From an uncultured Pelagibacteraceae bacterium (lineage in GTDB: Bacteria > Pseudomonadota > Alphaproteobacteria > Pelagibacterales > Pelagibacteraceae): a DNA stretch of 57,660 nucleotides. Below are positions 16,746-34,641 of this stretch, piece after piece. Both the position numbers and the translations under genes were made by a program. The notes beneath the pieces are model-generated. The model saw only the letters and a list, made by a program, of their open reading frames with translations. It was not told the origin of the DNA and ran no database searches. Position 1 is the stretch's first letter; every line of letters begins with the position of its first letter. The stretch is taken from NCBI GenBank assembly GCA_902604695.1, contig CACKZT010000005.1, positions 1-57,660 on the forward strand. Direction: 5' to 3'.

Positions 16746-18938
<2,193 letters not shown>

Positions 18939-18979
18939 TTAATATAATAATTTTAACTTGAAATAAAAGCGACAATCTG

Positions 18980-19393
18980 TCAATTTTTTAAATTTATAAA
19001 CACCTCTAAATTCTTTATTTTTTTTCCATTTGGTGCTTTTGGAATTTTTTCAAAAACCACCTCATCCTCGTTAATATCAATTAGTTCTGAAGTTTCTGTA
19101 TCATAAAAATGATGGTGATTTTTTACATTAGTATCAAAATAGGTTGTTTTTTTTTTACCTCTAACATCTACCTCACTTAAGTGTCCAGCAGTTTTAAAAG
19201 CATGAACAGTATTGTAGATGGTTGCTAATGCAAATTTATTTGTAGTTTTTTTTGTTAAAAGTTTATTTAAACTTTCTACAGTAAAATGAAATGTTTTTTC
19301 TCTGTCGAATAAAAATTTAGCAATTTCAACTCTTTGCTTTGTTGGTCTTAGTCCTGAGGATCTTAATTTTTTTAAAATATTTGTTTTTTTCAT
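18980..19393 (-). CDS. irr: Iron response regulator Irr (Fur superfamily)
   Basis: Fur-superfamily repressor/activator that senses haem status in alphaproteobacteria. The winged helix is at 11-75 (GLRPTKQRVEIAKFLF, LATIYNTVHAFKTAGHL), then TYFDTN and the histidine run HHHF (93-96) followed by LIDI. This HHH site is characteristic of Irr and its haem binding; the Cys pairs of zinc-Fur are absent. The gene is divergent from fabA-fabB-fabI, an arrangement conserved in rhizobia and relatives, which strengthens the Irr call. An ICE-box-like palindrome sits in the gap at 19418-19434. 137 residues. Confidence 0.88.
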   Translation of the reverse strand: MKKTNILKKLRSSGLRPTKQRVEIAKFLFDREKTFHFTVESLNKLLTKKTTNKFALATIYNTVHAFKTAGHLSEVDVRGKKKTTYFDTNVKNHHHFYDTETSELIDINEDEVVFEKIPKAPNGKKIKNLEVFINLKN

Positions 19394-19417: not shown

Positions 19418-19434
19418 TTTATAATCATTCTAAA
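19418..19434. promoter_or_regulatory. Candidate Irr box (iron control element)
   Basis: TTTATAATCATTCTAAA in the 90-base irr-fabA gap is an inverted repeat, TTTATAA-3-TTCTAAA. It differs at one position from the published ICE consensus TTTAGAA-N3-TTCTAAA bound by Irr. It overlaps a perfect -10 element TATAAT at 19420-19425, so bound Irr would cover a fabA-direction promoter. It could also serve irr itself, divergently. The site is seen directly; its function is inferred. Confidence 0.5.
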
Positions 19435-19446
19435 ACACAAATATAT

Positions 19447-19500
19447 ATGAAACCTTTCTTAAATCAAGTAAAAGAGTTTTTAAATGATGCAAAAAAATAG
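19447..19500 (+). other. 17-codon upstream ORF overlapping the fabA start
   Basis: ATG at 19447 opens a 17-residue frame ([17 protein letters not shown]) that ends at TAG 19498-19500, past the fabA ATG at 19484, in another frame. It could be a leader that couples translation to fabA, or chance in A/T-rich sequence. There is no independent support. Confidence 0.2.
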
Positions 19501-19990
19501 CTATAGTTTTGAGGAATTAATTGAGTGTGGAGAAGGTAAACTTTTTGGTAAGGGAAATGCAAAATTACCATTACCACCAATGCTAATGTTTGATAGAATA
19601 ACAGAAATAAGTAAAGATACCGGAAAATTTAAAAAAGGATTAATTAAAGCTGAGCTAGATATAAAAGATGATCTTTGGTTCTTTAATTGTCATTTTCAAG
19701 GTGACCCAGTAATGCCAGGGTGTTTAGGTTTAGATGCGATGTGGCAATTGGTTGGTTTTTATTTGGGTTGGGTAGGTGAGCCTGGAAAAGGAAGAGCGTT
19801 AGGAGTTAATTCTGTTAAATTTACAGGTGAGGTATTAAAAAAAATAAAAATGGCTACTTATGAAATAGATATGAAAAGAATTTTAAAAAAGGAAGGAACA
19901 GCTGTAGGTCTAGCTAACGGAACCTTAAGTGCAGATGGAAAAATTATTTATACAGCAGAAAATTTAAAAGTAGGGTTATTTAGATCATGA
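19484..19990 (+). CDS. fabA: 3-hydroxydecanoyl-ACP dehydratase/isomerase FabA
   Basis: Introduces the cis double bond at the C10 stage of unsaturated fatty-acid synthesis. The active-site His70 lies in [16 protein letters not shown] and Asp84 in [11 protein letters not shown], both as in the family. Length 168. Two tandem ATGs (19484, 19487) are possible starts. Its stop overlaps the fabB start (ATGA), and the three genes fabA-fabB-fabI form one operon divergent from irr. Confidence 0.96.
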
Positions 19991-21198
19991 AAAGAGTAGT
20001 TATAACTGGAATTGGAATAGTTTCTTGTTTAGGCAATAATCAAGAAGAAGTTTATAAATCATTGCTGAATTCTAAATCGGGAATATCATATTGCGAAGAA
20101 TACAAAGAGCATAACCTAAAAAGTCAGGTTCATGGAAAACCAAATATTAAAATTTCTGACCATGTAGATAGAAAGATTATTAGATTTATGGGATCAGGCT
20201 CAGCATATAATTATATTGCTATGAAAGAAGCTGTGCAAGACTCTGGGTTAGAAGATAAAGATGTTAGTAATTTTAATACAGGAATAGTTATGGGTTCAGG
20301 AGGACCTTCAATAGAAAATGTAATTTTAGCTGCAGACAAAACTAGAGCAAAAACACCTAAATTGATGGGGCCATTCATTGTTCCCAGGACGATGGCTAGT
20401 ACCGCATCTGCTACTTTGGCTGTGCCTTTTAAAATAAAGGGAGTTAATTATACAATGAGTTCTGCTTGTGCAACTAGTGGGCACTGTATTGGTAATTCAG
20501 TAGAACTAATACAATCTGGAAAACAAAAAATTATGTTTGCTGGAGGAAGTGAAGAAATTCATTGGGCGATGACGGCTATGTTTGATGCAATGACTGCATT
20601 GTCATCAAAATATAATGACACGCCAGAAAAAGCATCAAGGGCCTACGATAAAACTAGAGATGGTTTTGTAATAGCCGGAGGTGGGGGTGTTTTAGTACTT
20701 GAAGAATATGAACATGCAAAGGCAAGAGGAGCTAAAATATATGCTGAAATTACTGGTTATGGAGCTACGTCAGATGGTTATGATATGGTAGCACCTTCTG
20801 GAGAGGGAGCAGTAAGATGTATGAAGCTAGCATTAGCGACAACGAGAAATAAAATTGATTACATCAATACACACGGAACATCCACTCCTGTTGGAGATAT
20901 AACAGAACTTAAAGCAGTTAAAGATACATTTAAAGAAAATATTCCTAAGATTAGCTCTACAAAATCTTTATCAGGCCATCCATTAGGAGCAGCTTCAGTA
21001 CATGAGGCTATTTACTGTTTAATAATGATGAAAAATAATTTCATTACTGGATCTGCAAATATAAATGAAATGGATGAAGAGGCAAAGAAATATCCTATTG
21101 TAACTAAAACTGAAAATAAAGTGTCTTTAAATTCAGTTATGTCTAATAGTTTTGGTTTTGGTGGAACTAACGCAACTTTAATTTTTGAGAAAGTGTAA
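19987..21198 (+). CDS. fabB: 3-oxoacyl-ACP synthase I (FabB)
   Basis: Condensing enzyme that elongates unsaturated acyl-ACPs, partner of FabA. The catalytic triad is visible: Cys161 in [10 protein letters not shown], His in [10 protein letters not shown], and His in [12 protein letters not shown]. The glycine-rich end [12 protein letters not shown] is the family C-terminus. Length 403. The overlap with fabA and the two-base gap to fabI indicate co-translation. Confidence 0.96.
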
Positions 21199-21200
21199 TC

Positions 21201-21986
21201 ATGGACTTGATGAAAGGTAAGAAGGGATTAATAATGGGCGTAGCTAATGAGCGCTCAATAGCCTGGGGAATCTCTAAAAAACTTTCGGAAGCAGGGGCTG
21301 AATTGGCATTTACCTATCTAGGTGATGCTTTAAAAAAGAGAGTTATTCCCTTAGCTGAAAAATTGAATTCAAATGTAACTTTTAGTTGTGATGTCGAAAA
21401 AAAAGACGAAGTATTAAAACTTTTTAACGACATAAAAGCTAAATGGGGACAAATAGATTTTGTTGTTCATGCGGTGGCATTTTCAGATAAGTCTGAACTA
21501 TCAGGTGAATATTTAAATACTAGCAGAGATAATTTTTTAAGAAGTATGTTAATATCTTGTTTCTCTTTTACTGAAGTGTCTAAAGAAGCATCAAAAATTA
21601 TGAAAGAAGGTGGTAGTCTGCTTACTCTGACTTACGAGTCAACTAAAGCGATACCAAATTATAATGTTATGGGTGTCTGTAAATCAGCTCTAGAGGCAAG
21701 TGTCAAATATATAGCGAGAGATCTCGGAAAGAAAAAAATAAGAGTTAATGCTATAAGTGCCGGACCAATAAAGACATTAGCTGCCTCAGCTATTGGAGAT
21801 GCAAAATTTTTATATAAATGGAATGAAGACCATTCATTTTTAAAAAGAAATGTTGATATCAATGACGTTGGAAATTCAGCATTATATTTATTAAGTAATC
21901 TTGCCGCTGGAGTTACCGGTGAAATTCACTATGTGGATGCTGGATATAATAAAGTAGGAATGCCAGATCCTAAAAATATCACTTAA
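21201..21986 (+). CDS. fabI: Enoyl-ACP reductase (NADH) FabI
   Basis: Final reduction step of the fatty-acid elongation cycle. A short-chain dehydrogenase of the FabI type: nucleotide loop GVANERSIAWG (13-23), the Tyr145/Tyr154/Lys161 set in YESTKAIPNYNVMGVCK, and NAISAGPIKTLAA after it. Length 261. It is the last gene of the irr-divergent fab operon. I prefer the first ATG at 21201, although MKGKKGLI three codons later would give the more usual family start. Confidence 0.96.
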   Translation: MDLMKGKKGLIMGVANERSIAWGISKKLSEAGAELAFTYLGDALKKRVIPLAEKLNSNVTFSCDVEKKDEVLKLFNDIKAKWGQIDFVVHAVAFSDKSELSGEYLNTSRDNFLRSMLISCFSFTEVSKEASKIMKEGGSLLTLTYESTKAIPNYNVMGVCKSALEASVKYIARDLGKKKIRVNAISAGPIKTLAASAIGDAKFLYKWNEDHSFLKRNVDINDVGNSALYLLSNLAAGVTGEIHYVDAGYNKVGMPDPKNIT

Positions 21987-34215: not shown

Positions 34216-34641
34216 TTATTTTTTAATTTTTGAACCGTAAAGTTCTAATTTATGATCAACTAATTTATAACCAAGTTTTGTAGCAATTTTATTTTGAAGC
34301 TCTTCAATTTCTTTGTCAACAAATTCTATTATTTCTCCATTATTAATATCAATAAGATGATCGTGATGTTCATCCGTAGATGGCTCATATCTAGATTTAC
34401 CTTCTTTAAAATCATGCCGTTCGATAATACCTGACTCTTCCAGTAATTTAACTGTCCTATAAACCGTAGCGATACTAATCTTCTTGTCAACTAAACTTAC
34501 TCTTTTGTGTAACTCGTCTACGTCGGGATGATCTTTAGAACCATATGTCATTTTTGACTCTGACATTACTTTGGCTATAACTTTTCTTTGATCAGTTAAC
34601 CGAACACCCTTTTCTTTACATTTATCTTCTATTTTACTCAT
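34216..34641 (-). CDS. fur: Ferric uptake regulator family protein (Fur/Mur)
   Basis: Metal-dependent transcription regulator. The winged helix includes GVRLTDQRKVIAKVM and ISIATVYRTVKLLEESGII; the metal/dimerisation part has RHDFKEGKSRYEP, DEHHDHLIDI and a C-terminal helix. The CxxC zinc pairs are absent, as in many alphaproteobacterial Fur/Mur proteins, so manganese or iron sensing cannot be decided. Length 141. It is distinct from Irr, which carries the HHHF site. It lies between tsaB and miaB, with rimI missing. Confidence 0.9.
   Translation of the reverse strand: MSKIEDKCKEKGVRLTDQRKVIAKVMSESKMTYGSKDHPDVDELHKRVSLVDKKISIATVYRTVKLLEESGIIERHDFKEGKSRYEPSTDEHHDHLIDINNGEIIEFVDKEIEELQNKIATKLGYKLVDHKLELYGSKIKK

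Follow-up and report, generated by a model that had tools for sequence, protein, structure and literature searches.

Between irr and fabA lies a short palindrome, and the question it raises is which protein would bind there and which of the two flanking genes would come under its control. In the window, by which we mean the whole 57,660-nucleotide stretch of DNA that was analysed, the 17-mer TTTATAATCATTCTAAA is read on the plus strand at 19418-19434 inside the 90-bp irr-fabA gap. We refer to it as site A and, on the grounds of one mismatch to the ICE and of its conservation, predict it to be an Irr operator of a variant ICE type, assigned to no strand. The mismatch with the consensus TTTAGAANNNTTCTAAA (TTTAGAA-N3-TTCTAAA) is a T for G at base 5 (position 19422), and this T creates a TATAAT at 19420-19425. 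The ICE-type layout of the site is an 8-1-8 palindrome, and its right half-site, TTCTAA, is the half-site that was mutated in S. meliloti mbfA. The earlier note had described a one-mismatch Irr-consensus palindrome between irr and fabA, and both its sequence and its neighbours were confirmed.

On one side of the gap, irr (18980-19393, minus strand) encodes a Fur-family iron response regulator of 137 aa whose best NCBIfam model is IrrA. The protein scored 136 bits with IrrA, 123 with Irr and 62 with PerRA; the first two values are below the cut-offs of the NCBIfam Irr models (150 and 170, respectively), as was the case for two other SAR11 Irr proteins (128 and 148), and two class-level Irr proteins passed with 209-211. 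The window protein was accordingly filed as an Irr-family homologue and not as a curated equivalog. It contains zero cysteines and thus has neither a PerR-type zinc site nor a Bradyrhizobium-type haem regulatory motif. Its HHH motif, which is of the putatively haem-binding HXH type, is invariant in the SAR11 alignment used and also occurs in class-level Irr, and a YFDTN...HHHF signature was common to the window protein and alphaproteobacterial Irr in the alignment. The haem regulatory motif is dispensable for Irr, as the Brucella protein is also devoid of it (PMC3413700). On the other side of the gap, fabA (19484-19990, plus strand; above the NCBIfam cut-off) is the first gene of the putative target operon. 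It overlaps by 4 bases with fabB (19987-21198, plus strand), which encodes a beta-ketoacyl-ACP synthase I that also scored above its NCBIfam cut-off, and a 2-base gap separates fabB from fabI (21201-21986, plus strand), an enoyl-ACP reductase gene whose best NCBIfam models are all FabI. The three genes form a tight run. A 17-codon upstream open reading frame at 19447-19501, overlapping the fabA start out of frame, was rejected as a gene because its ATG is not conserved; in a few relatives this reading frame is in frame with fabA.

Conservation is the decisive evidence that the palindrome is real. Among named genomes, the nearest to this one are single-cell genomes and MAGs of Pelagibacteraceae; we counted relatives as close if their Irr is at least 70% identical. 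The earlier note had made its reading depend on the palindrome being kept in related irr-fabA gaps, and site A, at no more than two mismatches, was found in this gap in 48 of 48 close relatives. Across 49 aligned gaps, conservation averages 0.96 over the palindrome. Both arms are conserved at 0.94-1.00, save one column that is split by an alignment gap in an A run, and the centre base and the irr leader beside the palindrome each reach 0.65. The T at 19422 that breaks the perfect symmetry is itself conserved at 0.98. Such fixed arms around a free centre have the look of a dimer operator, as judged from the alignment. Site A was also found in other genera of Pelagibacteraceae. At class level, irr and fabA are near each other in 7 of 29 Irr loci, with gaps of about 240-430 bases and no clear ICE in them, and in one class-level locus (L088) an ICE-like site precedes irr, with no fabA nearby.

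The position of the palindrome relative to the two promoters suggests what it might control. TATAAT (19420-19425, plus strand), conserved in close relatives, coincides with the left half-site and is the putative -10 element of the fabA-fabB-fabI operon; a consensus scan recognised no clear -35 for this promoter. One clade (g2) retained TATAAT though the right arm of its palindrome had decayed, which fits an independent role for this hexamer as the fabA -10. The proposal that a promoter -10 lies under the palindrome thus finds support for fabA. For irr, the putative -10 is TATATT (19440-19445, minus strand; conservation 0.98 over the 49 gaps), and the putative -35 is CTTGAT (19463-19468, minus strand; conservation 1.00 over the same gaps), 17 bases from it. 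The CTTGAT/TATATT pair was also listed by the simple consensus scan for promoters, and AATCAAG is retained in almost all genomes of the family, even those without the palindrome. With these elements, irr transcription would start at the edge of the palindrome, and the operator would cover about +1 to +17 of irr.

Taken together, these features make it probable that the palindrome is an operator of the Irr encoded next to it and that one dimer blocks both the irr and the fabA-fabB-fabI promoters. Its parts differ in strength. Site A is with high probability an Irr operator, a prediction well supported by conservation, by a twin site beside irr and by the absence of such sites from katG and fabA promoters in genomes that lack irr; autoregulation of irr through site A is likely, and control of fabA-fabB-fabI through it is plausible. 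Iron or haem may, by inference, control fatty-acid synthesis. An Irr dimer would cover 19418-19434. It would thereby occupy the putative plus-strand -10 of fabA and, for minus-strand irr, roughly the first 17 transcribed bases (about +1 to +17), such that a single binding event could block both promoters together, resulting in autorepression and repression of the fab genes. By analogy with studied Irr proteins, haem-free Irr would bind DNA when iron or haem is scarce, and haem, and in Bradyrhizobium H2O2 as well, would remove it. The Irr proteins studied so far bind ICE boxes in their haem-free state, and repression results where such a box lies over the core promoter (PMC7762939, PMC7540006, PMC3413700). 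The ICE of S. meliloti mbfA overlaps the -35/-10 region, and mutating it derepresses the gene (PMC7540006); in R. sphaeroides, the Irr box of mbfA includes the start (PMC3413700). The position of site A over a putative promoter matches these cases of Irr repression.

A rather unlikely reading is that the operator serves autoregulation only, with its overlap with fabA due to the short gap and with fatty-acid synthesis not meaningfully regulated. The irr promoter elements are the most conserved part of the gap, none of FabA, FabB and FabI is known as an iron enzyme, and the missing clear -35 of fabA points the same way, as do clades that drop site A yet keep fabA and irr. Of the 32 named relatives at greater distance, 21 have lost site A while retaining irr and a second site (site B), which indicates that control of fabA or irr via site A is dispensable. 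However, the 98% conservation of the T that completes TATAAT towards fabA, together with the persistence of TATAAT without the other arm in clade g2, implies that the operator exactly overlaps the fabA -10.

Site B, which is absent from the earlier note, is the more widely conserved of the two. It lies in the gap downstream of irr and was found, at no more than two mismatches, in 80 of 80 named Pelagibacteraceae relatives. The gene that follows it is katG in most relatives and rubrerythrin in seven, so that this site points to peroxide as much as to iron. Here, too, the TATAA half-site stands where a -10 for the following gene would be, and many relatives have a TTGAC-like -35 to go with it. 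In five loci where rubrerythrin replaces katG (L061, L064, L054, L057 and L058), the gap contains a pair of Irr-like sites that enclose a TTGAC -35. KatG and rubrerythrin are iron enzymes of peroxide defence, and in the relatives Irr would hold down one or the other via site B until haem or peroxide signals need. In the species of the window this Irr-katG link would have been lost. Its catalase-peroxidase gene katG (16746-18920, minus strand; above the NCBIfam cut-off), to which site B belongs in most relatives, is preceded in the irr-katG gap by a decayed remnant, GTTAAAATTATTATATT (18941-18957, minus strand), with 5 mismatches and by no site at two mismatches or fewer, making the window the only one of 81 without an Irr site at the katG or rubrerythrin promoter. 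The window KatG is 91-92% identical to that of the distant L264, L265, L266, L268 and L274 and about 69% identical to that of the close relative L261, which suggests that the katG allele may have been replaced by recombination with loss of control; these five possible donors themselves carry site B.

katG and rubrerythrin are classical PerR targets, and the site A operator presumably stands midway between the ICE and the PerR box TTATAATNATTATAA. It is nonetheless unlikely, in our judgement, that the Irr homologue is used in a PerR-like manner, that is, as a sensor chiefly of peroxide with katG/rubrerythrin and its own gene as targets. Conservation is indeed highest (80/80) for the site at katG or rubrerythrin. 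Bradyrhizobium Irr is degraded upon exposure to H2O2 (PMC4902296), and an R. sphaeroides irr mutant is H2O2-resistant (PMC3413700). In iron-limited Ca. P. ubique, irr was unresponsive to iron: its mRNA tracked stationary phase, with no significant change in the Irr protein, and rubrerythrin increased 1.57-fold, the strain's own irr-rbr arrangement being outside this comparison (PMC2864753). This rise is opposite to simple repression at low iron. Against the PerR-like use, the protein is far better described as Irr than as PerR (136 versus 62 bits) and has no cysteine zinc site, and Irr identity and peroxide sensing are not mutually exclusive. In view of the P. ubique data, a peroxide-weighted role is a serious alternative that would be compatible with a site most conserved at katG/rubrerythrin. 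The earlier proposal that iron or haem controls the fab genes, irr or both stood in part: a target that is irr, or both, is reasonable, as the conserved -35/-10 of irr itself adjoin the site, but as to the iron signal, the one relevant data set found, on Ca. P. ubique, shows no iron-responsive irr (PMC2864753).

Whichever signal it carries, the operator pair appears to belong to Irr and to no other regulator, as judged from where the sites occur. Among the 76 matches to the hybrid motif TTTATAANNRTTCTAAA listed for the genus, in a listing that extends through genome G061, 70 directly flank irr (24 just 5' and 46 just 3') and six lie elsewhere. The hybrid pattern was present in 125 of 125 irr-positive versus 6 of 44 irr-negative genomes of the genus, a contrast that is partly trivial since the sites lie right beside irr and many of the assemblies are not complete. 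Complete or near-complete genomes that lack irr and have both katG and fabA (e.g. G172, G176, G188 and G204) contain no site with two or fewer mismatches in the 250 bases upstream of either gene. In L150 (G169), irr has apparently been lost, katG and fabA are direct divergent neighbours, and both sites are gone. A search for rubrerythrin in the irr-less genomes found none, with no positive control for the search. The window encodes a Fur-type paralogue (Fur/Mur, 34216-34641), and ATAATCATT resembles what we take to be part of a Fur box, but that this protein rather than Irr owns the site is very improbable: among the matches listed, the sites flank irr and nearly nothing else, and three irr-less genomes in which the Fur-family paralogue is still found (G176, G188 and G204) are without the site at katG and fabA, which means that the palindromes track irr and not Fur.

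The genome scan for further copies that the earlier note had proposed was carried out on the SAR11-type assembly (815 kb, 79% complete). The exact 17-mer TTTATAATCATTCTAAA occurs once in it, and the remaining three one-mismatch sites are all inside coding sequence, leaving site A as the sole intergenic one-mismatch site found in this 79% complete assembly; in complete relatives, most of the further one-mismatch sites inspected were also coding. At up to three mismatches the motif was at background in the window (39 found versus 40.7 expected), and the whole-genome motif count was no higher than that of the control, the reversed pattern being at least as frequent. Because the loose motif and the control pattern are equally frequent, the sequence match alone is weak, and a wide Irr regulon derived by ICE counting was rejected as unsupported for lack of enrichment over controls in the window or genome. 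A chance product of AT-rich DNA and a -10 element, which such background-level loose matches in window and genome would favour, is a negligible prospect and already contradicted by the comparison: when the 90-bp gap was dinucleotide-shuffled 20,000 times, a site with at most one mismatch arose in just 0.1% (frequency 0.001), both arms are conserved in 48 of 48 relatives around a free centre, and a twin site lies at the next promoter. Two further observations concern the motif in other genomes. In L166 (~1505), L167 (~1533) and L169 (~1517), a gene for a TRAP-type substrate-binding protein is preceded, at a distance of about 65 bases, by the 17-mer TTTAAAATWATTCTAAA. This 17-mer is also present in G040 and G042, genomes without a detected irr; it could be a further site or an unrelated element. 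In L176 (1468-1613; G192:C1:76167-76312), from a complete SAR11 genome, five ICE-like palindromes are spaced by about 32 bases with no listed open reading frame.

SAR11 bacteria, which rank with the most abundant cells on Earth, live with scarce iron, sunlight-made peroxide and few regulators. The conserved operator pair around irr offers a concrete, testable wiring through which haem/iron or peroxide state could act on irr, on catalase-peroxidase or rubrerythrin, and possibly on membrane lipids. Irr here seems to have shrunk from a genome-wide iron regulator to one mainly of its own neighbourhood, and SAR11 irr would be a case of a global regulon shrinking in this way. We propose, tentatively and as a possibility short of an expectation, that SAR11 Irr has turned from a global iron regulator into a local haem and/or peroxide switch, whose flanking operators use a half-site that is the -10 of the target and would couple katG/rubrerythrin, irr and unsaturated fatty-acid synthesis in one gene island.

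The PerR regulon comprises katG/rubrerythrin and the regulator gene, and the half-site of the PerR box is TTATAAT. The SAR11 system is alike in both respects and differs in that its protein groups with Irr and has no cysteine zinc site. Irr operators, Irr autoregulation and a small Irr regulon (R. sphaeroides) are already known. A SAR11 operator pair, a half-site doubling as a -10 and a fabA-fabB-fabI target were not found in the Irr literature examined, and an earlier SAR11 prediction is possible because a 2006 computational study of alphaproteobacterial iron regulons (Rodionov) may touch on Pelagibacter. What is variant here is the hybrid form of the operator, the local extent of the regulon and the putative fab target. 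With the ICE/Irr box of rhizobia and Rhodobacter (S. meliloti mbfA; R. sphaeroides mbfA and ccpA), site A shares the TTCTAA half-site, a 7-3-7 palindrome, the overlap with a core promoter or start and a place beside iron and peroxide handling genes. It differs in its other half, which is TTATAA for TTAGAA and doubles as a -10, and in its putative target, a fatty-acid operon plus irr. Brucella abortus irr is autoregulated, according to a title in the reference list of PMC2864753, and as far as a title can tell, irr in both organisms would have an operator at its own promoter. Relative to that title, SAR11 would differ in that the operator is shared with a divergent fabA operon, that the protein has no haem regulatory motif and that the regulon seems limited to the flanks of irr. 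The R. sphaeroides Irr regulon is small, with two predicted sites, at mbfA and ccpA, and katE not bound (PMC3413700). SAR11 resembles it in having few targets that are tied to peroxide handling, and differs in that its sites flank irr itself and lie at katG or rubrerythrin.
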